A stretch of 36,168 bases of DNA, taken from Gammaproteobacteria bacterium. GTDB taxonomy: Bacteria > Pseudomonadota > Gammaproteobacteria > JAHELT01. The notes below the pieces were generated by a model, which was not told the origin of the DNA, ran no database searches, and saw only the letters and a list, made by a program, of their open reading frames with translations. Shown here one piece after another: positions 5,302-32,501 of the stretch; within the stretch, counting starts at the first letter, position 1, and every line of letters starts with the position of its first letter. Made by a program: the position numbers and the translations under genes. The stretch is from NCBI GenBank assembly GCA_029861595.1, contig JAOTYY010000007.1:1-36168 (forward strand), read 5' to 3'.

Positions 5302-6717
5302 TCAAGGCGCGGCAAGAATTTCTGCCAGCGCATTGCGTAAATGCAGGTGCGGTGCATCGTCGTTCACCTCGCCCCGTAACGCCGGTCGCACGATATCTTC
5401 GACCAGGCGCAGGTACGTCGCTTCGCCGCGGCTATACGTGTCGCCGTAACCCTTGAGCACGCGCGCAACCTGTGCGGTCTGCATCGCGAACTCTGGTGAC
5501 AGTTCACGCGCGGCGCCGACGAGGTTCAGCCACTCGTCGATATTCTTCTGCTCGCGCTGGAACCTGAATGACCGGCGGCGCCAGGGTCTGAGTTTGGCGA
5601 GCCACCAGACTTGCAGGAAGCCCCATACCGTGGTGGTTTTCACGCGCATCGCGATAGCTGCCTTCTCCTGGCGGTTTTTTTTCTGCGCCAGTGCCAGCAG
5701 CCGGCGTCCGGGTCGCGGGGGTAGGATGTCCGCCAGTTCTGCGATCCCGGGCTTGAAGAAATCCTGGATCTCGATCGGGTCATGCCGCTGCGCGCCGAGC
5801 TCTTCGCGAATCCGCTCGAAGCGGCTGGATTTTATTTTCAGCTGCGCAACGCGAATGATATCTTCATACGACATGCGCACGGCCAGATTACGCGCGACCT
5901 CACGCTGTAACTCGGGATCGTCGACGAATCTCTGCAATCGTTCGAGGTACTGTCGTGCATAGCGTGAATCCTGATAGTCTGTGAGGCGAGCGATGCCGAG
6001 CCGCGCAACTTCACGAGCTTCTTCCGCGACGCCGGCAACCTGCTCCTGGAGGGAGACTGACGTGGTCACCGTTTTGTCCGCCGGCGCCCCTGCGGGTCGC
6101 CTTGCGCTTGGTTGTGTCAGCGCAAGACCGGCATCGAATCCGCGCAGGTTCTGAGACACGGCAACGCCGCGTCGCGCAATCGAATCACGCAGGCGCTCAG
6201 CGTTCACCGGCAGCATGTCCGTTGTCGCAAGCGCCCCCAGCAGTACCGCGTTGATCGGCGCGTTGGCCGCGCTTGCCGTGCTCTGGGCATCGAACAGGAA
6301 GCGGGATTTACTGCCCGATTCCAGAGCCCGCATCAACGTGGCGGCGTCCAGACGCCCGTCGCCCCTGGCCATTTTCTCCTGGGTAGTGAGAACCCGGTGT
6401 GTAGAGGCAACCAAGCACGTTCGTTCGCTGGTGCTGTAACCTTTCTCCACCATGCGCGCGGCCTCCAGCAGTTCGCTGGCGAGCACTACGTCGACGTCGC
6501 CGGCCACGGGCATGAGCGCAAAAACCGGCGTCTGCGCGGCGCTCTCATGCCAGATCTCCAGGTAGTAGGTGGTGGCGCCGGTGCGCTGCGCTACGCCCGG
6601 CACCGAGGTGGCCTGCGCGGGCAATCCGGCCTGTTGCGCAGCATCGATGACCCAGCTGGTGAGAACGCCGCCGCCCTCGCCGCCCAGTGCCGCGATCAGC
6701 AGGCGCGTGGCCGGCAT
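5302..6717 (-). CDS. iorB: Indolepyruvate oxidoreductase subunit B (IorB) with C-terminal DUF6537-like domain
   Basis: The second subunit of a 2-oxoacid:acceptor oxidoreductase that converts aryl pyruvates to aryl-acetyl-CoA. The 471-residue protein begins with LLIAALGGEGGGVLTSWV, the Gly-rich start of the POR/KOR gamma-type domain (to about residue 200). A helical, basic C-terminal region of about 240 residues matches the DUF6537-type extension of bacterial IORs. ATG 6717 overlaps the iorA stop by one base (TAATG), so translation is coupled and the two subunits form one enzyme. An in-frame start 22 codons upstream would lie inside iorA and is not needed. The substrate (indolepyruvate, phenylpyruvate or another aryl 2-oxoacid) is inferred from the family. 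Confidence 0.87.
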   Translation of the reverse strand: MPATRLLIAALGGEGGGVLTSWVIDAAQQAGLPAQATSVPGVAQRTGATTYYLEIWHESAAQTPVFALMPVAGDVDVVLASELLEAARMVEKGYSTSERTCLVASTHRVLTTQEKMARGDGRLDAATLMRALESGSKSRFLFDAQSTASAANAPINAVLLGALATTDMLPVNAERLRDSIARRGVAVSQNLRGFDAGLALTQPSARRPAGAPADKTVTTSVSLQEQVAGVAEEAREVARLGIARLTDYQDSRYARQYLERLQRFVDDPELQREVARNLAVRMSYEDIIRVAQLKIKSSRFERIREELGAQRHDPIEIQDFFKPGIAELADILPPRPGRRLLALAQKKNRQEKAAIAMRVKTTTVWGFLQVWWLAKLRPWRRRSFRFQREQKNIDEWLNLVGAARELSPEFAMQTAQVARVLKGYGDTYSRGEATYLRLVEDIVRPALRGEVNDDAPHLHLRNALAEILAAP

Positions 6718-8849
6718 TAGCCGGGTTCCGCCAGCGCGCCGATCAGGCGCTGGCGCAGCCGGTGCAGCGCGCGCTCGAACCAACCGGCATTATGAATGCG
6801 AATGGCACGGTAGAACGAAGGACACAACGCGGCGGCATGCGCCATTTCGCCGCACAGGCCGCAATCAAGGCATTCTTCAGTGACATGCGCGACAGGATCG
6901 GTGCGCAACGGGTCGGTGTTCGGCCGCACCGTCAGCGTCGGGCAGCCGGACAGCCGGATGCAGGAGTGGTCGCCCGTGCACACGCTTTCGTCGACACCGA
7001 ACTTGCCCTTCGCTACGCGTCGGCCGTTTTGCAGCGCATCGTTAACGCGCACGCGTTCACGCCGTTGGCGCGCCAGCATGCACTCGCCATCGGCGATGAT
7101 CACCTTCAGTCCCTTCTCGGTAGTGGTCAACGCCTGCTTGAGCGTTTTGACCATCGTGCCAACCGAGTAGGTCCTGACGATCTTCAGCCAGTCGACCCCC
7201 ATCGTTTTGAGGGTGCGGGCGATGTCATTGCCGGTCCGGAACCTGCCGGTCGCGTGCCGTGTAGAGGGAAGGAACTGTTGTCCGGTGGCCGAAGCGTAGC
7301 CGTTGTTCATGATTATCAGCACACCGTCGCCCCGGTTGTAGAGATTGCTGGCCACGCCGGTCTGAACACCGTTATGCCAGAACCCGCCATCGCCCATGAT
7401 CGCCACCGTTCGTCGCGCCTGCAGCGGCGCCACGGCGGCATTGCTGGCAAGCGACATTCCATAGCCGAGAATCGAGTTGCCCATCGAAAATGGTGGGAAC
7501 GTTGCGAACGCGTGGCAACCGATGTCCGCGGCGACGTGAACCTTGCCGACCGCTTTTTCGGCCAGCTTGATGGCACCGAATACAGGCCGTTCGGGGCAGC
7601 CGGTACAGAAACCGAGCGGTCGCGGTGCGAGCGGCATCCCGGTTACGCCGGCGGCCCGCTGCCGGACCGACTCCAGATTCTGACGGCGTTTGAGTATGCC
7701 TGCGAGGTCGAGTTCGTCGCCGGCGGTTTCCGTAAAGAACCGGCCCAGTCCTTCCGCGAGCACTTCGCCGCCATACTCGCCGGATTCGGGGAGAAAATCT
7801 TTGCCGTGCAGTGTCACGCTCGCACCGGCGTCTACCAGCATTCGCAGCATCTGCTGTTCCATGAATGCAGGTGAGCCTTCTTCGATAACCAGCACGTGCC
7901 CCTTGTCGGCTGCAAAGTCGACGATTTCATCGGTTACCAGCGGGTAGGTAACATTCAGGGCAAGAATGTCTACATCGGATTCGCCGTATTCGGTGGCGAG
8001 ACCGAGTTCGAACAGCTGGCGCAGCACGGTGTTGTAGAGCCCGCCCTGCAGGATCAGTCCCAAACGGCTGGTCTTGCGGCCGGTCCACCTTTCGTTGAGG
8101 GCATGATCGCGGATGTAGTCGCGCGCAGCCGGAATACGTTCGCGGAGCTTGCGGGTTTCCTGATTGAAAGTCACCGGCGGGTGCGCCAGGTGCTGGTAGT
8201 CGAATTCTGCCGGGTCGCTGAATCTGTTGGCGGGCCCATGCGCTGGTTTGCGGTTGTTTCTGGCCTTGAACGAACCCTGCAGATGGCAGGCGCGGATCCG
8301 CAGCTGCAGCAGCGCCGGCATGTTGCACGCTTCCGACAGCGCGAAGCCCTGTTCGACCATGTCGACCATGGTGGTCAGGTTCGGGCGGGGGTCCAGCATG
8401 AGCAGCGTGGATTTCATGGCGTAGGCGTATGTGCGTTCCTGGATAACGCTCGAGCCTTCGCCGTAGTCTTCGCCGATGACGGCGAGTGCGCCCCCCAGCA
8501 CGCCGGGCGAGGCCAGATTCGACAGCGCGTCCGAAGCGACGTTGGTACCGACAATGGACTTCCAGGTTACGGCGCCACGCACCGGGTAATTAATGGACGC
8601 GCCGAGCATAGCGGCCGCGGAAGCCTCGTTGCTGCATGCTTCAACATGCACACCCATTTCCACCATGTAATCCTGGGCACTGACCAGGACATCGAGCAAG
8701 TGCGACACGGGTGCGCCCTGGTACCCCCCGACGTAGGCTACCCCCGATTGCAGCAATCCTTTGGTGATGGCGAGAATACCTTCGCCATAGAACGTTTCAC
8801 CCTCACCCAGGCGCAGCATGCCGATTTCATTTTCGAACGTTCGTTCCAT
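6717..8849 (-). CDS. iorA: Indolepyruvate:ferredoxin oxidoreductase subunit A (IorA)
   Basis: The 710-residue catalytic subunit. The N-terminal pyrimidine-binding half contains YVGGYQGAPVSHLLD, and the ThDP-binding GDG motif starts at residue 486 (GDGGFWHNG) with the matching NN at 515-516. A ferredoxin-like tail carries Cys624, Cys630, Cys636, Cys660, Cys663, Cys666 and Cys676. In the first cluster motif the usual second Cys is Asp627 (CTGDHSC); the second is CxxCxxC with a later CP. ATG 8849 follows GAGGG; an upstream in-frame TTG (8885) is less likely. The enzyme oxidatively decarboxylates aryl pyruvates with CoA and ferredoxin, in aromatic amino acid breakdown. It is translationally coupled to iorB and divergent from the TRAP genes. 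Confidence 0.9.
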   Translation of the reverse strand: MERTFENEIGMLRLGEGETFYGEGILAITKGLLQSGVAYVGGYQGAPVSHLLDVLVSAQDYMVEMGVHVEACSNEASAAAMLGASINYPVRGAVTWKSIVGTNVASDALSNLASPGVLGGALAVIGEDYGEGSSVIQERTYAYAMKSTLLMLDPRPNLTTMVDMVEQGFALSEACNMPALLQLRIRACHLQGSFKARNNRKPAHGPANRFSDPAEFDYQHLAHPPVTFNQETRKLRERIPAARDYIRDHALNERWTGRKTSRLGLILQGGLYNTVLRQLFELGLATEYGESDVDILALNVTYPLVTDEIVDFAADKGHVLVIEEGSPAFMEQQMLRMLVDAGASVTLHGKDFLPESGEYGGEVLAEGLGRFFTETAGDELDLAGILKRRQNLESVRQRAAGVTGMPLAPRPLGFCTGCPERPVFGAIKLAEKAVGKVHVAADIGCHAFATFPPFSMGNSILGYGMSLASNAAVAPLQARRTVAIMGDGGFWHNGVQTGVASNLYNRGDGVLIIMNNGYASATGQQFLPSTRHATGRFRTGNDIARTLKTMGVDWLKIVRTYSVGTMVKTLKQALTTTEKGLKVIIADGECMLARQRRERVRVNDALQNGRRVAKGKFGVDESVCTGDHSCIRLSGCPTLTVRPNTDPLRTDPVAHVTEECLDCGLCGEMAHAAALCPSFYRAIRIHNAGWFERALHRLRQRLIGALAEPG

Positions 8850-8903
8850 GCTCGACACCCTCAGGTAAAACGACCGCTGTAGCAATCAATGGCGGATTGT
8901 AAT

Positions 8904-23594: not shown

Positions 23595-24368
23595 ATGATA
23601 TATATCAAGAAATCACATGCGCGCAACAGAGCCTTGACCGCTTTTGCCTGCATAGTCGGGTTTGCATTTACTTTGTCAGGTTGCGGTGGCAGTTCATCGA
23701 CACCGGCGCCAGCCGCACCACCAGCTGCTCCTGGAAATATTGCGATCAGCGGGAAAATAGAGACTCCCACTGCTGTTTTCGGCGATGTCGCCGAGCCCGA
23801 TGTTACTGTTGAGGCCGTCTATACAGATCCCGGCGACCCGGCGAATCCTACGGCCATGACAGATGCCAACGGAGATTATTCGATCGCCGTGGAACAAAAC
23901 AGAACATTCTATCTGCGTTTCTCAAAAGACACTTTCGCTACCTTGAACAGCGAAAAGGTGGCATTCAGTAACAATCAGACAGGTATTGATCAGACAATCC
24001 TGCTTACCGGTAGTACGCAAATCATTATTAATGACGCGTTTGCACCACAGTTCCCCCAGCCCGGGCTCCCGGATTTTGCCTGGCTCGCTGTCGGTGTGGA
24101 AGACAACGACGTTGAAATAAATGGCGTAACAATTTCATCAGTACCGGCAACATTCGACAGGGTGTACACAGATTGTACCGGGGCGGATAGCGGCCAGATG
24201 GCGACTAGTGGTGCCGTTTGTCCAGGCAGAGGAAATCTCGGTGCTGCTCCACAATACATCGCGTATTTCGTAAACATCACGGGTACTGTCGAAGCCGACG
24301 TGACTGCTGATGGTGTAACCAAAAAAGTCCCCCTGAGAGTGGGCGAGATTGCCGTTGTTGAGTTTTGA
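23595..24368 (+). CDS. Predicted lipoprotein with Ser/Pro/Ala linker
   Basis: A 257-residue exported lipoprotein. The signal peptide ends in the lipobox LSGC (Cys30), after a hydrophobic core AFACIVGFAFT. A low-complexity linker of Gly, Ser, Thr, Pro and Ala follows (to about residue 50). The body then begins with a carboxypeptidase-regulatory or transthyretin-like beta domain (EPDVTVEAVYTDPGDPANPT, then DANGDYSIAVEQNRTFYLRF). The C-terminal region has a likely disulfide pair (DCTGADSG and AVCPGRG). Its function is unknown; surface or periplasmic anchoring is likely. It is noticeably richer in AT than neighbouring metabolic genes. It shares its lipobox-plus-linker design with the lipoprotein at 25111-25683. 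Confidence 0.85.
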   Translation: MIYIKKSHARNRALTAFACIVGFAFTLSGCGGSSSTPAPAAPPAAPGNIAISGKIETPTAVFGDVAEPDVTVEAVYTDPGDPANPTAMTDANGDYSIAVEQNRTFYLRFSKDTFATLNSEKVAFSNNQTGIDQTILLTGSTQIIINDAFAPQFPQPGLPDFAWLAVGVEDNDVEINGVTISSVPATFDRVYTDCTGADSGQMATSGAVCPGRGNLGAAPQYIAYFVNITGTVEADVTADGVTKKVPLRVGEIAVVEF

Positions 24369-24475
24369 GGGGCGATTACCCTCAATACCGTGCTTGGTTC
24401 TGACCTGTGCAGTCAGAATCAAGCATCTTGAGGTTCACAAGCGCACAGAAGAATAACCGGCGAATGCCTCGGAGA

Positions 24476-24679
24476 GTCTGCGGGGCGCGGCGGATGTTCG
24501 AGAGTGCGGTACTGCTGGTCGACGAGGTGTTGCCTGAGCCACCGATGCGCCAGTGGGTGCCGAGCGTGCCGTATGCCATTCCCTTTCTATTCGCTGCCCA
24601 TCCGCACGTGATGAGCAAGGTGCTGGCCATTGTTGACCGTGCGATCGAGACGCATCTGATCCACAACGCAGTTCGCTGA
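24476..24679 (+). pseudogene. IS91-family transposase fragment
   Basis: The frame reads VCGARRMFESAVLLVDEVLP and continues RQWVPSVPYAIPFLFAAHPH to RAIETHLIHN before stopping. This matches, from memory, the segment after the N-terminal zinc finger of IS91-type (Y2) rolling-circle transposases, where phrases like RRMAESAALLVDEV and RQWVLSVPYPLRFLFA are conserved. The zinc-finger cysteines upstream and the whole catalytic HUH/tyrosine part downstream are missing, so the copy is dead. It lies inside the lipoprotein island and marks past insertion. Confidence 0.7.
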
Positions 24680-25110
24680 GCGCTTACGATATTTGGAGCT
24701 ACCGGTTTCCGAAACGTTTGCGCATTCTGCCTGTCGGGGATAAACAACCTGTTGGACGAAGAGTTTCAGTTTCCGGGATCGTGGCTTCCCACCAGCAAGC
24801 GCCGGTTATTCCTCTTCATTCACCGGGGATTTTTATAGATATGTATTCAGATCGTTATGCTTCCAAGACAAAGTGGCCTGGGCGCGTTCGCCGGGTTTGC
24901 GATGGCATGAAGCGGAGAACCGTGTGCGCGCATCGATTACAGACCCCAGCCCAAGTCCGTGGTTTGGCCGGATTTCAGGGGTGGTGGGGCGTCGTAAAGA
25001 AATGTTCTCTGTCCCTTCTATCCCCAATATATTCGGGTAAACGATAGCGTCTATCCCGCTCCATCGGGATAGACGGTGATCGTTTCAGGATAACGTGTTC
25101 TTTCCCTGAA
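24680..25110. other. Intergenic stretch after the IS91 fragment
   Basis: About 430 bases hold no supported gene. The stretch is richer in AT than its surroundings and may include degraded insertion sequence material, but no transposase phrase is readable. It contains the hairpin at 25048-25075. Confidence 0.45.
25048..25075. terminator. Perfect 11-bp hairpin, probable terminator for the minus-strand lipoprotein
   Basis: The arms cgtctatcccg (25048-25058) and cgggatagacg (25065-25075) are exactly complementary around a 6-base loop. It lies 35 bases beyond the stop of the lipoprotein at 25111-25683. Only a weak T-rich patch follows on the minus strand, so termination strength is uncertain. Confidence 0.45.
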
Positions 25111-25683
25111 TCATTGCTTGGTTAAGAAGGATGATCCATCCAGCTGAGTGGGGCGAAGGGCATCTGTTGAGCCATCGTTGGCACCGTCAGTATCACCCAA
25201 GTACAATTTGTTGTCTTTAATCGCAGCAATTTCAAACTCGTTCTCGCTTGGATCGCTTGGATCTACGATATCCATCTCGGTGGCGGTAGTGATTCCATCG
25301 ACCGAGCCATCCACCGTTACATTACTGCCAAGTGTATAGGTTAGGGTATCAAGAGGTTCTTGCGAAACCATCATAGCGCACGTTACATCGCTTTGGTCGT
25401 AAATATCTGCCACACCGGTTATTGTCGTCGCATTTATCGTAACGGTGATGATTAGGTAGACAATATTGAGGGGATCTTCATCTTCCAGAAAGCACGGGCT
25501 CTTCCACGTCCCTGTCAGCTCTGCGGTTGTAACACCGCCACCACCGCCACCACCACCACCGCCACCACCGCCACCGGGTGCAGGGGTACTGCTTGAACTG
25601 CCGCCACAGGCGGATAACATAAAAAGAATGACGATGCCGAGTGGAACTAGTCGTTTGGTAGCTAACACAATACATTTCCTCAT
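25111..25683 (-). CDS. Predicted lipoprotein with polyglycine linker
   Basis: A 190-residue exported lipoprotein. The signal peptide has a hydrophobic core (VPLGIVILFML) and the lipobox LSAC, with Cys26 as acylation site. The mature protein starts GGSSSSTPAP and then 14 consecutive glycines. The remainder (from TAELTGTWKSPCF) looks like a small lipocalin-like or calycin beta-barrel: the opening L-x-G-T-W phrase is typical, with repeated T-x-T strands and an acidic C-terminal half. Its function is unknown. Start ATG 25683 has no clear ribosome binding site. The glycine tract is encoded by a near-perfect trinucleotide repeat, so its length may vary. Confidence 0.82.
   Translation of the reverse strand: MRKCIVLATKRLVPLGIVILFMLSACGGSSSSTPAPGGGGGGGGGGGGGGVTTAELTGTWKSPCFLEDEDPLNIVYLIITVTINATTITGVADIYDQSDVTCAMMVSQEPLDTLTYTLGSNVTVDGSVDGITTATEMDIVDPSDPSENEFEIAAIKDNKLYLGDTDGANDGSTDALRPTQLDGSSFLTKQ
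25534..25575. repeat. Trinucleotide repeat encoding Gly14
   Basis: Fourteen consecutive triplets, each acc or gcc on the plus strand (GGT or GGC codons on the coding strand), with no other triplet interrupting. Changes by whole units would lengthen or shorten the linker without breaking the frame. Confidence 0.9.
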
Positions 25684-26211
25684 AATTGATTGCTGGTGAT
25701 TACTTCATCCTAACAGAGGCGAGCGTAGTGGCTCAGAACCACTGGTGCTTCCTTGCTTCTTCGCCTGTTTGCGACACACCGCGAACGAACAATTTATCAC
25801 AGTTTTCCCCTGTCGTACTTATATCGTGACCATGCCCCGGGGGTGGAGCGACGTTGCGCGGTCGAATGACTCTTGGCCGGCGCGCCGACAACGACGTGCT
25901 CCGTGTTTCGAGAGCGCGATACGCGCTGGGAATCTGCCGGCTCGGCGTAATTAATGTCTTATCAAGGTTAGTTTGTCGGGATGCGGCGGCGGTGCGCCGA
26001 CGCCACCACCAGCATCCGCACCACCCACAGCGGGAAGTGCTTGTCCCGGCCTTAGACCGATTCACGAAGTCGCTAGGTGTGTTAAGTTGTCGTGAGCCGT
26101 ATTGGCATCGTATCGCGGATCGTACGGACTGGTCACGTTGATGCAGATCAAGAATCTGTCGTTGGTGAAAATTCAGAATAATACTCAAAACAGCGGTTAT
26201 CGGGGGTCGAC
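25684..26211. other. Intergenic stretch between lipoprotein and Cfa-like gene
   Basis: About 530 bases without a convincing full gene. It includes the lipobox-like remnant at 25955-26095. The last 110 bases are relatively AT-rich and probably contain the promoter of the methyltransferase operon, though no -35/-10 pair stands out. Confidence 0.4.
25955..26095 (+). pseudogene. Possible lipoprotein remnant (lipobox plus Pro/Ala linker)
   Basis: A short frame bounded by stops reads CLIKVSLSGCGGGAPTPPPA then SAPPTAGSACPG and ends 20 codons later. LSGC followed by GGG and a Pro/Thr/Ala linker is the same arrangement as in the two intact lipoproteins nearby. No start codon with a ribosome binding site and no hydrophobic signal core precede it in frame. 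It may be the debris of a third lipoprotein, or chance in GC-rich DNA. Confidence 0.25.
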
Positions 26212-27471
26212 ATGGGATGGGGCACATCCACCATACTTAGACGCAGGCTTGAAGCACTGGGTGGTTCGACCGCCTTGTGTTTCGCGGTTACGTTTGCCGA
26301 TGGCAGTCGTTTCCAGAACCGCATCGGCGAACCGTCGGCGCGACTGAGCTTCAAGAACAGGACTGCCGAACTGGCGGCGATATTGTTTGGGCACGTCGGA
26401 ATCCTGGATGCGTATTTCGCCGGTTCGCTGGACATAGAGGGCGAACTGGCCAGCATGTTCCGCATCGGATTCGAGACGCGCTACGATCGCTCGAGCGGCG
26501 CGCTGGTGAAACTGCGCAACCGCTGGCACGAGTGGCGGTTATCCAACGCCAGCGTGGCGCAGGCGCGCACCAACGCGCGCGCTCACTACGGTCTGGACAG
26601 CGACTTCTACCAACAGTGGCTGGACTATCCGTCGATGATGTACACCTGTGCGTACTGGAAAGACGGCACGCGTGATATCGAGCAGGCCCAGTTCAACAAG
26701 ATCGAACACGTGTGCCGCAAGATCCGGCTTGCACCTGGTGAGTCGGTGGTCGACATCGGCTGCGGGTTCGGCGGTTTCATGTTTCATGCGGCCGAACACT
26801 TCGGCGCCAGCGTGTGCGGCATCAACATCACCCCGGAACAGGTCGCCTACGTGCAGGAGGAAACACGCCGCCGGCGGCTGCAACACCTGGTGGAGGTTCG
26901 CGAAGCGGATTTCCGCAGCGTGCACGCGCAGTTCGACAAGGTGGTATCGATCGGCGTGCTCGAACACGCCGGCCGTGACCAGCTTGCAGAAGTCGTCAGG
27001 GCGCACGCGGATTTCCTCAAGCCGGGAGGCCTGGGGATGCTGCATTTCATCGGACACGTCGGCGAGCGGGATACGGAGTTCTACATTCGCAAGCACATCT
27101 TTCCGGGTGGTTGGATTCCGGGGCTCGCGCGCACCATCACGGAGATGGAGCGCTGCGGCCTCGAGATCCTGGATATCGAGAACCTGCGTCGTCACTACGC
27201 GCTGACACTGGATGCGTGGGCTGAGCGTTTCCAGCACAACTGGCCGGCTGTCCACGAGCTCGATCCGCAGCGCTTCGACGAGTCGTTCCGCCGCAAATGG
27301 CTTACGTACCTGGTCTCGTGCGCGGAGATGTTCCGCGCGCCGCAGCAGCGCACGCACCTGTTCCAGATCGTGTTCAGCAAGGGCAACGTGGCCCTGTACG
27401 ACTACCCGATGAGCCGGGACTTCCTCTACGCGCGGCCGCAACCGCCAGCGCGCGCGGCGGTGAGCCGTTGA
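26212..27471 (+). CDS. Cfa-like SAM-dependent fatty acyl phospholipid methyltransferase (TmsB/UfaM-like)
   Basis: A 419-residue enzyme of the cyclopropane fatty acid synthase family, which alkylates double bonds of phospholipid acyl chains using S-adenosylmethionine. The SAM motif VVDIGCGFGGF is at 179-189. The active-site Cys segment MMYTCAYW (C146) corresponds to MQYSCGYW in E. coli Cfa, and SIGVLEHAG is the usual acidic/His segment. The N-terminal 110 residues match the Cfa lipid-binding domain. ATG 26212 follows GGGGGT closely. Its stop overlaps the TTG start of a TmsA-like flavoprotein, which suggests that it makes a methylene-branched intermediate rather than a cyclopropane; this is an inference from gene pairing. 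Confidence 0.9.
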   Translation: MGWGTSTILRRRLEALGGSTALCFAVTFADGSRFQNRIGEPSARLSFKNRTAELAAILFGHVGILDAYFAGSLDIEGELASMFRIGFETRYDRSSGALVKLRNRWHEWRLSNASVAQARTNARAHYGLDSDFYQQWLDYPSMMYTCAYWKDGTRDIEQAQFNKIEHVCRKIRLAPGESVVDIGCGFGGFMFHAAEHFGASVCGINITPEQVAYVQEETRRRRLQHLVEVREADFRSVHAQFDKVVSIGVLEHAGRDQLAEVVRAHADFLKPGGLGMLHFIGHVGERDTEFYIRKHIFPGGWIPGLARTITEMERCGLEILDIENLRRHYALTLDAWAERFQHNWPAVHELDPQRFDESFRRKWLTYLVSCAEMFRAPQQRTHLFQIVFSKGNVALYDYPMSRDFLYARPQPPARAAVSR

Positions 27472-28802
27472 CGACAGCCGGTTACGCCGAGCGCAAGGCG
27501 CAGCTGGCCGATGCTCTCGGGTCGGCACGCCAGGTGCGGTTGCGAAAATGCACGTCCAATCTTTTCCGGGACCGTCCCGCACCGGGCGGCGGCGGACTCG
27601 ACGTGGGCGGGTTGCAGCATGTGCTCGGCGTCGATCCGGTTGCACAGTTCGTCGATGTGGAGGGCATGACACCCTACGACGCGCTGGTCGAGGCAACACT
27701 CGCAGTGGGGGTAATGCCTTGCGTAGTTCCGCAGCTTCGATCGATCACCGTCGGCGGTGCGGTGGCGGGGATCGGTATCGAATCCTCGTCCTTCCGCTAT
27801 GGGCTGGTACACGAGACGGCGCTCGAAATCGACGTGCTGCTCGCCGACTCGACCATTGTCACCTGTACGCCGGACAATGAACACCGCGACCTGTATTTCG
27901 GGTTTCCCAACAGCTACGGCACGCTGGGTTACGCGCTGCGGGCGCGTCTCAAGACAATTCCGGTACGGCCCTGCGTCGCGCTGACCCATCACCGTTTCAC
28001 GTCGGCCGACAACTTGTTCGCGGCACTGGGCCGGTTCTGCGACAGCGACGCGGATTTCGTCGAGGGTGTGGTGTTCGATCGTGCATCGCTGTTCGTCACC
28101 ACCGCGAAGTTCGCCGATGAAGTCCCGTACACGAGTGATTACGGCTTCGAACACATCTATTACCGCTCTATCCCAGTGCGAGACAGCGACTACCTGACCG
28201 CCTGCGACTATCTGTGGCGCTGGGACACCGACTGGTTCTGGTGTTCCCGCAACCTGTGGGCCGACAAGCCGCTGGTGCGCCGGCTGCTCGGCCGCGAACG
28301 GCTGAATTCGCGTTTCTACCAGAAGGTGATGCGCTGGAACAGTCGCTGGGGTGTGATGCGGCGTCTGGACCGGCTCGTCGGCGTGCATCGGGAGTCCGTC
28401 ATTCAGGACGTGGTGATACCGTTGTCGAAAGCCCCCGACTTTCTCGGTTTCCTGCTCCGCGAAATAGGCATCACGCCGGTCTGGTTATGCCCGATTCGCC
28501 GGGTGCATGACGGCTACCGATTCCCTCTGTTCCATCTCGAGCCAGGTACGACGTACGTCAATTTCGGTTTCTGGGATATGCTGCGGGGTCGCCAGGCGCT
28601 GGCCCCGGGCCACTACAACAGGCGGGTGGAAGACGAGGTTGCCCGGCTTGGCGGGATGAAGTCACTGTATTCGGACAGCTTCTACACGCGCGATGCTTTC
28701 TGGCGGCACTACGATGGGTCGGCCTACCGTGCGCTCAAGGACCGCTACGATCCAGCCAGGCGGTTCGGCGATCTGTTTGACAAGTGCGTACGCGGTACCT
28801 AG
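27468..28802 (+). CDS. FAD-binding oxidoreductase, TmsA/UfaD-like (partner of Cfa-like methyltransferase)
   Basis: A 444-residue flavoprotein of the FAD_binding_4 (vanillyl-alcohol oxidase) superfamily. The FAD domain includes VPQLRSITVGGAVAGIGIES followed by SFRYGLVHETALEIDVLL and PNSYGTLGYALRARL, phrases I recall from TmsA of 10-methylstearate synthesis and from related DHCR24-like proteins. TmsA-type enzymes reduce a 10-methylene acyl chain to 10-methyl; the UfaD type instead desaturates methylated chains on the way to furan fatty acids. The start is TTG 27468, overlapping the upstream stop as TTGA, so translation is coupled. No better start exists in frame nearby except codons inside the methyltransferase gene. 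The direction of the redox reaction is not decided by sequence. Confidence 0.85.
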   Translation: MTTAGYAERKAQLADALGSARQVRLRKCTSNLFRDRPAPGGGGLDVGGLQHVLGVDPVAQFVDVEGMTPYDALVEATLAVGVMPCVVPQLRSITVGGAVAGIGIESSSFRYGLVHETALEIDVLLADSTIVTCTPDNEHRDLYFGFPNSYGTLGYALRARLKTIPVRPCVALTHHRFTSADNLFAALGRFCDSDADFVEGVVFDRASLFVTTAKFADEVPYTSDYGFEHIYYRSIPVRDSDYLTACDYLWRWDTDWFWCSRNLWADKPLVRRLLGRERLNSRFYQKVMRWNSRWGVMRRLDRLVGVHRESVIQDVVIPLSKAPDFLGFLLREIGITPVWLCPIRRVHDGYRFPLFHLEPGTTYVNFGFWDMLRGRQALAPGHYNRRVEDEVARLGGMKSLYSDSFYTRDAFWRHYDGSAYRALKDRYDPARRFGDLFDKCVRGT

Positions 28803-29706: not shown

Positions 29707-29782
29707 CCCGCCGCGACAGATACCTTTTTGTCAGTCGATTCCTGTACTGTAACTGCCCGCTGTGGCGACTTGCGGAGGTGAC

Positions 29783-30613
29783 GTGACTGAGTCTAACGTT
29801 GTCGACTCGATCGACGAACTGGTCGCGCGGATTCCCGACGGCGCGCGACTTGCTCTGCCGAAGGACAGTGCCGGTGCACCAATGGGCGCGGTACGCGCTC
29901 TCATCCGCCGCGGGGTGCGGGACCTGCATCTGATCACCGTGCCCACCAGCGGGTTGGCAACGGACCTGCTGGTCGGCGCGGGCTCTGTCGCCTCGGTCGA
30001 GACGTCCGGGGTTTCGCTCGGCGAATTCGGCGGTGCGCCGCGCTTCAATGCCGCAGTCAAGCAGGGCACGATCGCCGTACGCGATGCCACCTGTCCTGCC
30101 ATTTACGCCGGGCTGCAGGCTGCGGAAAAAGGCATTCCCTTTATTCCACTGCGCGGCGTCATAGGCTCGGACGTGCTCGCGTACCGCGACGACTGGAAAG
30201 TCATCGACAATCCTTTCGCGCCACACGGCAAAGACCCGCTGCTGGTGCTGCCCGCTATCGAGCCGGAGTTTGCATTGTTTCATGTGCGGCGCGCTGACCG
30301 GTTCGGTAACGTCTGGATCGGTGTAAACGGGGAACTGGCGATCATGGCGCACGCCGCGGCGCATACCCTGGTCACCGCGGAGGAGATCGTCGATGATGAT
30401 CTGATGGCGGAGGAAGGCACTGCGGCGGGCACTGTTCCCGCGGTGTACGTCACTGCCGTTGCGCAGGCGCGCAAGGGCGCCTGGCCGCTTGCGTTTCTCG
30501 ACCAGTATCCCGCGGACGATCGCCACCTTGCGAATTATGTGAGAGCGGCGCGCAGCGCTGAAGGGTTCGACGACTACCTCCGGCACTGCACCGAATCTGC
30601 AGACGATACTTGA
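29783..30613 (+). CDS. CoA-transferase family protein, subunit A
   Basis: A 276-residue member of the type I CoA-transferase family (glutaconate CoA-transferase/IpdA-like alpha subunit). The Rossmann-like fold begins at LARIPDGARLALP and includes HLITVPTSGLATDLLVGAGSV, FGGAPRFNAAVKQGTI and the C-terminal VTAEEIVDDDL. The usual glycine-rich oxyanion segment near residue 20 reads LPKDSAGAPMGAVRAL, unusual for the family. GTG 29783 is supported by GGAGG four bases upstream; an earlier GTG at 29762 has none. It is followed 16 bases later by subunit B. Members either transfer CoA or, as in IpdAB, hydrolyse a ring CoA thioester; the substrate is unknown. Confidence 0.82.
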   Translation: MTESNVVDSIDELVARIPDGARLALPKDSAGAPMGAVRALIRRGVRDLHLITVPTSGLATDLLVGAGSVASVETSGVSLGEFGGAPRFNAAVKQGTIAVRDATCPAIYAGLQAAEKGIPFIPLRGVIGSDVLAYRDDWKVIDNPFAPHGKDPLLVLPAIEPEFALFHVRRADRFGNVWIGVNGELAIMAHAAAHTLVTAEEIVDDDLMAEEGTAAGTVPAVYVTAVAQARKGAWPLAFLDQYPADDRHLANYVRAARSAEGFDDYLRHCTESADDT

Positions 30614-30629
30614 TTCCGGCGGGGCCGCC

Positions 30630-31361
30630 ATGCAGTGTCTGCCCGAAGAGCTGCTGATCGCGACGATCGCTGATCTGCTGCTGGGCTGCCGGACCGTCGC
30701 GGTCGGCGTGTCCTCACCGATTCCGGGGTCGGCCGCGTTGCTGGCCCGGGCGCAAAGCAGCCAACCGCTGCGGGTCGAACTGCTGGAGAGCCTGCACGGA
30801 AACAGCTTTACTCGCGGCAGCGTGGAGTTGTTCGACCGCGCGGCGCAAGGACGCATAGACGCGTTTTTTCTGGGCGGTGGCCAGATCGACGGCCTGGGCA
30901 ACATCAACCTGGTCGGTGCCGGCGAATACCCGGCGGGCAGCGTGCGCTGGCCGGGGTCGTTCGGATCCTCGTACCTGTATTTTCTGGTGCCGCGGGTGAT
31001 TCTGTTCCGCGAGGAGCACAGCCGGCGGGTGCTGGTGCCGCGTGTGGATTTCGTCAGCGCTCCCGGGGTCAGTGAACCCGGCGTGTTTCGCCGCGGCGGG
31101 CCTTACGCGCTGATTACCAGCAAGGCGGCGTTTCTGTTCGACGCTGAAAATTGTCGCTTCCGGCTGTCGAGTATCCATCCCGGTCATACGCTGGAGGAAG
31201 TGCTGGACAACACGGGTTTCGAATTCGACTACACCGCTGCGCCCGCCGAGACATCTTCACCGTCCGCCGCGACGCTCGCCACGATTCGCGGATCTGTCGC
31301 CGGCGAAATCGCGGCAGCCTATCCGCAGTTTGCAGCGCGCGTATTTCCCCGGCATCAATAG
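30630..31361 (+). CDS. CoA-transferase family protein, subunit B
   Basis: A 243-residue beta-type partner of the preceding gene. The segment VAVGVSSPIPGSAALLARAQ is followed by RVELLESLHGN, whose Glu may correspond to the catalytic Glu of glutaconate CoA-transferase-type beta subunits (ESG). FFLGGGQIDGLGNINLVGAG is the family signature for the C-terminal half. The remainder, VDFVSAPGVSEPGVFRRGGP with ITSKAAFLFD, is standard. It converges on the Old Yellow Enzyme gene 19 bases away. Whether the complex transfers or hydrolyses CoA thioesters depends on the Glu, which needs structural alignment. Confidence 0.84.
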   Translation: MQCLPEELLIATIADLLLGCRTVAVGVSSPIPGSAALLARAQSSQPLRVELLESLHGNSFTRGSVELFDRAAQGRIDAFFLGGGQIDGLGNINLVGAGEYPAGSVRWPGSFGSSYLYFLVPRVILFREEHSRRVLVPRVDFVSAPGVSEPGVFRRGGPYALITSKAAFLFDAENCRFRLSSIHPGHTLEEVLDNTGFEFDYTAAPAETSSPSAATLATIRGSVAGEIAAAYPQFAARVFPRHQ

Positions 31362-31379
31362 TGGGGACAGTCTCCGATC

Positions 31380-32501
31380 CTAACGCTGACCGGTCGGTGT
31401 GTCGCCGAAGACGCGTGGATGGCCCTGCGGAAGGCAACGCCAGTATTGCGCTGGCGCTGTCACGGTGGCGCCCAGTTCTGCCGCTGCCCGCCATGGCCAG
31501 CGCGGATCGTTCAGCATGCCGCGTGCAAGCGCGACCATATCGGCTTGACCGGAAGCGATAATCTCTTCGGCTTGGTGCGGTTCGGTGATTAAGCCGACGC
31601 TGATTACCGGGATGCTGATTTCGCGTTTTATGCGCTCGGCAAACGGTACCTGATAACCGGGTCCCGGCTGGATGTCCTGCTCGGGGGACAGGCCGCCGGA
31701 GGAGACATCCACGAATTCGCAGCCGGCTTCCTGCAGCCGCTGGCACAGCACGACGCTCTGCTCGATGTCCCAACCGCCCGCGATCCAGTCGCTGGCGGAT
31801 ATTCGTACACCCACAGGTATGTCTGCACCGGCTTCGCGCTGCACCGCCGCCAGCACACGCAACGGGAAACGCATGCGGTTCTCCAGCGTGCCACCGTATT
31901 GGTCGACCCGGCGATTGGTCAGTGGCGAGAGGAATTCGTGCAGCAGGTAACCGTGCGCCATATGCAGTTCGATCGCCTGGAAACCGAGGCGTTTCGTGCG
32001 CCGTGCCGCGTCCGCGAAACTGGCTTCGACGTGTTGCAGGCCGTCCTCGTCAAGCGCCCTGGGCGGCGCCTCGTGCGCATACAGGGCGATGGCCGAGGGC
32101 GCCACCGGCTGCCAGCCACCGGCAGCGGGCTCGATCAGCTTTCCGCCTTCCCAGGGACGGGCACTGGACGCCTTGCGTCCGGCGTGGGCGAGCTGGATGG
32201 CAAACGCAATGTCCGACACCTGCCTGACGACCGCCACGGCGCGCGCCAGCGAGACTTCATTGTCGTCGCTGTAAAGACCCAGGCAGGCGGGGGTGATCCG
32301 GCCTTCCGGGTTGACAGCCGTTGCTTCGACGAACAGCAGGCCGGCCCCGGACAGGGCCAGGCTGCCGAGATGTGCCAGATGCCAGTCGCTGGCCGAGCCT
32401 GCAGCGGCCGAATACTGGCACATCGGTGAGACGACGATGCGGTTGCGCAGTTCCAGCGCGCCGATCGAAACAGGTGAAAAAAGCCGCGCAGCGTTACTCA
32501 T
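31380..32501 (-). CDS. NADH:flavin oxidoreductase, Old Yellow Enzyme family (YqjM-like)
   Basis: A 373-residue FMN-dependent ene-reductase of the thermophilic-like OYE class. C28 and Y30 (SPMCQYS) match the YqjM redox-tuning Cys and active-site Tyr. H180 and H183 (ELHMAHGYLLHEF) are the substrate-binding pair, with Y185 as proton donor. QLAHAGRK and LTNRRVDQYGG are further hallmarks. It reduces activated C=C bonds of enones or similar electrophiles. It is last of a minus-strand run (SDR, AKR, OYE) with only 19 bases between it and the AKR gene. The start is ATG 32501, with a weak ribosome binding site. Confidence 0.93.
   Translation of the reverse strand: MSNAARLFSPVSIGALELRNRIVVSPMCQYSAAAGSASDWHLAHLGSLALSGAGLLFVEATAVNPEGRITPACLGLYSDDNEVSLARAVAVVRQVSDIAFAIQLAHAGRKASSARPWEGGKLIEPAAGGWQPVAPSAIALYAHEAPPRALDEDGLQHVEASFADAARRTKRLGFQAIELHMAHGYLLHEFLSPLTNRRVDQYGGTLENRMRFPLRVLAAVQREAGADIPVGVRISASDWIAGGWDIEQSVVLCQRLQEAGCEFVDVSSGGLSPEQDIQPGPGYQVPFAERIKREISIPVISVGLITEPHQAEEIIASGQADMVALARGMLNDPRWPWRAAAELGATVTAPAQYWRCLPQGHPRVFGDTPTGQR

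Follow-up and report, generated by a model that had tools for sequence, protein, structure and literature searches.

The adjoining genes P0001 and P0002 probably form a two-gene operon that places methyl branches in the middle of membrane fatty acids, in which P0001 is a Cfa-family methyltransferase and P0002, as judged from its sequence, is a BfaA (TmsA) orthologue and a predicted NADPH-dependent methylene reductase. What appears to be new is that a BfaA-type reductase is paired with a methylase from a clade undescribed in the sources searched, and this in the gene order of the tmp system. BfaA is another name for TmsA, and BfaB for TmsB. The window, that is, the whole stretch of 36,168 nucleotides that was analysed, is the entire contig C306 of a MAG of 4.33 Mb that is 90% complete and 0.6% contaminated. 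The features of the pair are as follows.

26212..27471, + strand: P0001, Cfa-family SAM-dependent methyltransferase, 419 aa (Pfam CMAS, E 6.5e-72)
26647..26649, + strand: Cys146 of P0001, equivalent to Cys139 of E. coli Cfa (bicarbonate site), from alignment of active-site residues
26743..26775, + strand: SAM-binding motif I, SVVDIGCGFGG, residues 178-188 of P0001, from the sequence; D181 and G183 are conserved in the P0001-type clade
27178..27201, + strand: ENLRRHYA, residues 323-330 of P0001; E. coli-type Cfa reads HNFGxDYD at this place
27468..27471, + strand: TTGA overlap of the P0002 start codon TTG and the P0001 stop codon TGA, from the sequence
27468..28802, + strand: P0002, BfaA/TmsA-type FAD_binding_4 flavoprotein, 444 aa, TTG start (FAD_binding_4, E 3.8e-12)
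27498..27866, + strand: FAD_binding_4 domain, residues 11-133 of P0002 (Pfam match)

A Cfa-type gene with an intact SAM motif and an active-site cysteine, joined by a TTGA overlap to a flavoprotein gene, had already been described in a sequence-only reading of this DNA, and that description is confirmed by the Pfam matches, the motif VVDIGCGFGG, and Cys146; both genes are intact. The TTGA junction lies at the same place in a genome of the same genus (L010), and ATGA is found in a genome of another family (L011); because these relatives have an equivalent junction, TTG is taken as the true start of P0002. An in-frame NTGA overlap occurs in 22 of the 51 methylase-first loci counted, a few of which are duplicate records, and this recurrence, together with the junctions of the two relatives, argues that the coupling of P0001 and P0002 is not due to chance.

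Elsewhere in the window, a lower-GC stretch (53% at 24001-26000 versus about 62%) lies just upstream of the pair, and near it, at 23595-25683, is a pair of lipoprotein-like genes, of which one contains a long run of glycines. At 29762-31361 and 31380-32501, a CoA-transferase-family pair that is IpdAB-like by appearance precedes a convergent gene for an old yellow enzyme and genes for an aldo/keto reductase and an SDR, and the genes of this 29762-32501 region may be a ring-cleavage catabolic cluster. On the minus strand at 5302-8885, POR/DUF6537 and TPP_enzyme_C domains are found in ORFs that overlap one another; these resemble an indolepyruvate:ferredoxin oxidoreductase that seems to be divided between two frames.

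P0002 combines two features expected of a BfaA, namely full-length FAD_binding_4 orthology and an adjacent Cfa-family methyltransferase. It is 44-55% identical, over nearly its full length, to actinobacterial BfaA orthologues of Nocardia, Tsukamurella, Nonomuraea, and Amycolatopsis, groups known for tuberculostearate, and it is in this form that the "phrases typical of TmsA" noticed earlier in the flavoprotein hold up. A search of named genomes with P0002 gave 80 loci at 44-63% identity, with beta- and gammaproteobacteria first, followed by Prauserella, Amycolatopsis, Actinomadura, Kutzneria, and Planotetraspora; matches in plasmid records, some of them very large replicons, came from Variovorax (55-59%), Nonomuraea (49%), Prescottella (48%), Tsukamurella (46%), and Nocardia farcinica (44%). 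The close homologues of the pair are beta- and gammaproteobacterial, and one tree unites the actinobacterial and proteobacterial BfaA-type copies, including P0002. The gene order in Tsukamurella is recR, YbaB, an Rv3717-type amidase, a pseudouridine synthase, an SRPBCC protein, an FAD-binding oxidoreductase, a SAM methyltransferase, and DNA polymerase III gamma/tau. In the bfaAB locus, the divergent neighbour is a polyketide-cyclase-like gene (PMC5660069), and the SRPBCC, FAD oxidoreductase, and methyltransferase order of Tsukamurella matches that locus. BfaB forms 10-methylene chains and BfaA reduces these with NADPH (PMC7791843); the activity of BfaAB has been shown in both E. coli and yeast (PMC5660069, PMC7791843), and in M. 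smegmatis tuberculostearate depends on the methylase MSMEG_6284, which is encoded after the flavoprotein MSMEG_6283 (PMC10127668).

The predicted structure of P0002 (pLDDT 85, pTM 0.87) is nearest to cytokinin dehydrogenase and DprE1, i.e., it is that of a VAO/PCMH-type flavoprotein. Both identities were considered and rejected, as only the fold and, in sequence, the FAD half are shared; as DprE1 (decaprenylphosphoryl-ribose oxidase), P0002 scores 56 bits against an NCBIfam equivalog cut-off of 500. FAD_binding_4 enzymes also include reductases of sterol alkenes, and one might imagine that the pair methylates and reduces an alkene of another lipid type (polyisoprenoid, sterol-like, or hopanoid, for instance), in the manner of plant SMT and DWF1. 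One of the distant relatives of P0002 does resemble sterol alkene reductases. However, the closest characterised relatives of P0001 and P0002 act on phospholipid acyl chains, and no isoprenoid genes were found beside the pair within the window, and we regard this possibility as very improbable. The distant relative itself, at L012:1201-2706, is an FAD_binding_4 protein with an N-terminal hydrophobic stretch that is 29% identical to P0002 and sterol delta-24 reductase-like; enzymes that reduce lipid alkenes may thus have a shared ancestry.

For the methylase tree, Cfa-type genes were gathered by their neighbours and comprised actinobacterial BfaB, TmpB, the UfaM type, E. coli Cfa, and the paralogues of the source genome. 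The TmpB group consisted of Cfa-type genes adjoining a geranylgeranyl-reductase-like gene, and the UfaM group of Cfa genes adjoining DUF1365, anchored by Halomonas ufaM, with R. sphaeroides UfaM itself left out. In the careful tree, the BfaB (100/100), TmpB (100/100), UfaM (100/99), and classical Cfa (100/100) clades were recovered, and P0001 fell outside all four, in a separate clade (100/100) of methylases preceding a BfaA-type gene in beta- and gammaproteobacteria. By this placement, P0001 (METHYLTRANSFERASE) is of its own kind. Its profile score is 202 for BfaB versus 726 for the P0001-type clade. In the best tree it is sister to TmpB with weak support (78/55), and AU tests gave the P0001-type clade no firm place in the deep branching order among Cfa-type clades, in that a position as sister to BfaB, UfaM, or classical Cfa was not rejected (p 0.42 for classical Cfa). 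The methyltransferase had been called Cfa-like, and it is indeed a Cfa-family enzyme adjoining a TmsA-type reductase, but it is not a member of the BfaB (TmsB) clade, the two clades being separate at 100/100. No description of the P0001-type clade, and no enzymatic or lipid evidence on it, was found in the sources searched. At L059:1844-4246, two P0001-type methyltransferases, each about 60% identical to P0001, lie adjacent on opposite strands beside one BfaA.

The bicarbonate site of classical cyclopropane synthases is present in P0001, which retains, in addition to Cys146, Glu251, His278, Ile280, and Tyr329 as the equivalents of E239, H266, I268, and Y317 of E. coli Cfa. The Cys146 position is C in 42/42 members of the P0001-type clade, 20/20 of BfaB, and 16/16 of TmpB; in the UfaM clade, 15/20 have S or A instead. 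The motif ENLRxHYA is common to P0001, BfaB, and TmpB and separates them from E. coli-type Cfa with its HNFGxDYD. As a diagnostic for methylene formation, however, this difference was demoted, as it is broken by the solved Lactobacillus-type Cfa structure (5z9o), which reads EMLRRHYQ, and by CmaA1, which reads LQPHYA. Because LRRHY or HYA also stands at this place in true cyclopropane synthases from Lactobacillus and mycobacteria, ENLRxHYA is only supportive, and the ENLRRHYA of P0001 only suggestive.

These similar letters in known cyclopropane synthases, and a bicarbonate site as in E. coli Cfa, would lead one to ask whether P0001 is a divergent cyclopropane synthase, with P0002 an oxidoreductase having an unrelated or downstream role, for example on cyclopropane chains. 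Classical Cfas adjoin BfaA in four loci, and the AU test leaves P0001 unseparated from Cfa, so that the tree alone leaves room for cyclopropanation by P0001. However, the source genome has at least one other Cfa, on contig C354, that groups with the classical ones; in the class sample, every close P0001-type methylase (3 of 274 genomes) lies beside a BfaA; and BfaA is known to act on a methylene-branched chain, not on a ring (PMC7791843). We consider a cyclopropane synthase unlikely here. Grouping of the methyltransferase with plain cyclopropane synthases had been named beforehand as the outcome that would count against methyl branching, and P0001 lies outside the classical clade (100/100), a sister position to it not being rejected. 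Given the classical-clade Cfa on C354, cyclopropane acids may coexist with the products proposed here.

A further alternative raised at the outset is a furan fatty acid route, with P0001 as UfaM, P0002 as UfaD, and UfaO elsewhere in the genome. The Ufa system opens, as the present one would, with Cfa-like methylation of vaccenoyl chains (PMC7380195), and in Halomonas ufaM adjoins ufaD and ufaO and forms a furan intermediate (PMC12089945). However, UfaD is an NAD/FAD protein related to phytoene dehydrogenases, and UfaO is a DUF1365 protein (PMC7380195); P0002, by comparison with this phytoene-desaturase type, belongs to FAD_binding_4. DUF1365, which is found in 38 of 143 genomes of the class, is absent from the whole source genome (90% complete), and the earlier remark that no UfaO-like gene is seen can thus be extended from the window to the genome. 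In addition, P0001 lies outside the UfaM clade (100/99) and has none of its changes, namely G236E, H240A, H266Q, and the loss, in most members, of C139. Because the UfaD family differs, DUF1365 is missing, and P0001 stands outside the UfaM clade with intact catalytic residues, the furan reading fails and is scarcely credible for this pair.

Methyl branching, the reading that we prefer, can be viewed against the wider distribution of the pair. A methylase-BfaA pair occurs in more than 40 beta/gammaproteobacterial loci, with the methylase first in all that have an adjacent partner, whereas the actinobacterial order is reductase then methylase. The methyltransferase-first order thus differs from the actinobacterial one, as had been pointed out, yet it is the normal order in proteobacteria. 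The BfaA-type reductase adjoins four methylase lineages: BfaB, the P0001 type, the TmpB type (L011, L036), and E. coli-type Cfa. The last of these lies directly upstream of a BfaA-type gene at L045:1974-3167, L065:786-1958, L073:4862-5992, and L079:4838-5962, in MAGs labelled Deltaproteobacteria, Nitrospirae/Nitrospira, and Woesearchaeota. With a classical Cfa before BfaA in these four loci, a BfaA neighbour alone is no proof of a methylene-forming partner, and these loci have either Cfas that form methylene chains or a different use for BfaA.

Some BfaA orthologues stand away from any methylase. In 16 further genomes, BfaA departs from the usual placement beside a methylase; 13 of these encode a TmpB-type methylase at another site, where no TmpA adjoins it. 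In L032 (flavoprotein at about 5968-7329), L034, and L043, BfaA orthologues without a Cfa neighbour directly follow FMN-reductase-like and ammonium-transporter-like genes, and a TmpB-type methylase is found elsewhere in the genome. A BfaA relative that is 34-35% identical, L213 (G184:C13:1859-3166), has no methyltransferase neighbour, and the other member of its genus (G012) has tmpBA.

A search for TmpA at E 1e-30 in 20 BfaA-carrying genomes, the source genome among them, found it in none (0/20) and did recover the positive control; an incomplete MAG could account for an isolated absence, but hardly for 20. Among 274 genomes of the class, BfaA is present in 9 and TmpA in 33, with no co-occurrence, an outcome that chance gives with P 0.31; this exclusion is not significant, and therefore only the 20-genome test carries weight. 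TmpB expressed in E. coli is a methylene former, TmpA is inactive in E. coli and yeast, and separate origins have been proposed for bfa and tmp, in part on the ground that BfaA and TmpA are unrelated (PMC7791843). Genomes that retain a TmpB-type methylase but have BfaA and not TmpA speak for TmpA being the methylene reductase, and the gene content of these hybrid TmpB-BfaA genomes suggests that BfaA and TmpA are interchangeable solutions to the same step. More broadly, and with the balance about even, the BfaA family may be a portable methylene reductase, one that has become linked to four or more separate Cfa-type methylase lineages (BfaB, TmpB, classical Cfa, and the P0001 type) and replaces TmpA in gammaproteobacteria, the P0001 type being a further methylene former, maybe with new chain lengths or branch positions, e.g., 12-methyl-18:0.

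In the proposed pathway, P0001, by analogy with its family, would bind SAM together with a phospholipid whose acyl chain is cis-monounsaturated and add a methyl group to one alkene carbon, and proton loss would then give an exocyclic methylene-branched chain without closure of a cyclopropane ring. The FAD flavoprotein P0002, fed by NADPH, would reduce the exocyclic methylene to a saturated methyl branch, as its orthology to BfaA predicts. FabA is present in the source genome, above its cut-off, and 16:1 delta-9 and 18:1 delta-11 are therefore expected as substrates. The most likely products, by analogy with BfaB and TmpB, would be 10-methyl-16:0 and/or 12-methyl-18:0; given three membrane-desaturase-family matches in the source genome, oleate is a possible additional substrate. 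Overall, the mid-chain methyl branching that had been proposed from the letters alone is well supported as a prediction by the BfaA orthology of P0002 and the conserved pair.

The soil fatty acids 10Me16:0, 10Me17:0, and 10Me18:0 have been assigned to actinobacteria (PMC3893180). If the present reading is true, these 10-methyl marker lipids would be blurred by beta- and gammaproteobacterial carriers, including Variovorax. Cultured carriers of the pair are Zeimonas arvi CC-CFT501, Methylohalomonas lacus HMT 1, and Variovorax paradoxus VAI-C. Furthermore, the mix-and-match operons make the role of TmpA as methylene reductase testable, and the P0001-type methylases would be new candidates for branched oil production.

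Finally, the pair can be compared with the closest known systems. With BfaAB (TmsAB), which performs actinobacterial 10-methylstearate synthesis (PMC5660069, PMC7791843, PMC10127668), it shares an orthologous FAD_binding_4 reductase, a two-gene operon, and an adjacent Cfa-family methylase with an intact bicarbonate site (for the BfaB site, PMC7791843); unlike BfaAB, its order is B-A, P0001 is about 31% identical to BfaB and in a separate clade, and the likely substrates are 16:1 delta-9 and 18:1 delta-11 via FabA rather than oleate. With TmpBA, the 10-methyl(ene)palmitate system of gammaproteobacteria and Desulfobacter (PMC7791843), it shares the methylase-first order, a proteobacterial host, and a methylase 34-39% identical to TmpB, but its reductase is of the BfaA family, whereas TmpA is of the geranylgeranyl-reductase family, and P0001 stands outside the TmpB clade. 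UfaM/UfaD/UfaO (PMC7380195, PMC12089945) likewise combines a Cfa-type methylase with a flavoprotein, but that flavoprotein is of another family, the source genome has no DUF1365, and P0001 differs in clade and active site. Classical Cfa (E. coli NC_000913 cfa) has in common with P0001 the family, the SAM motif, and the equivalents of Cys139, Glu239, His266, Ile268, and Tyr317; unlike E. coli Cfa, to which it is 31% identical, P0001 has ENLRxHYA for HNFGxDYD, lies outside the classical clade, and is coupled to a reductase.
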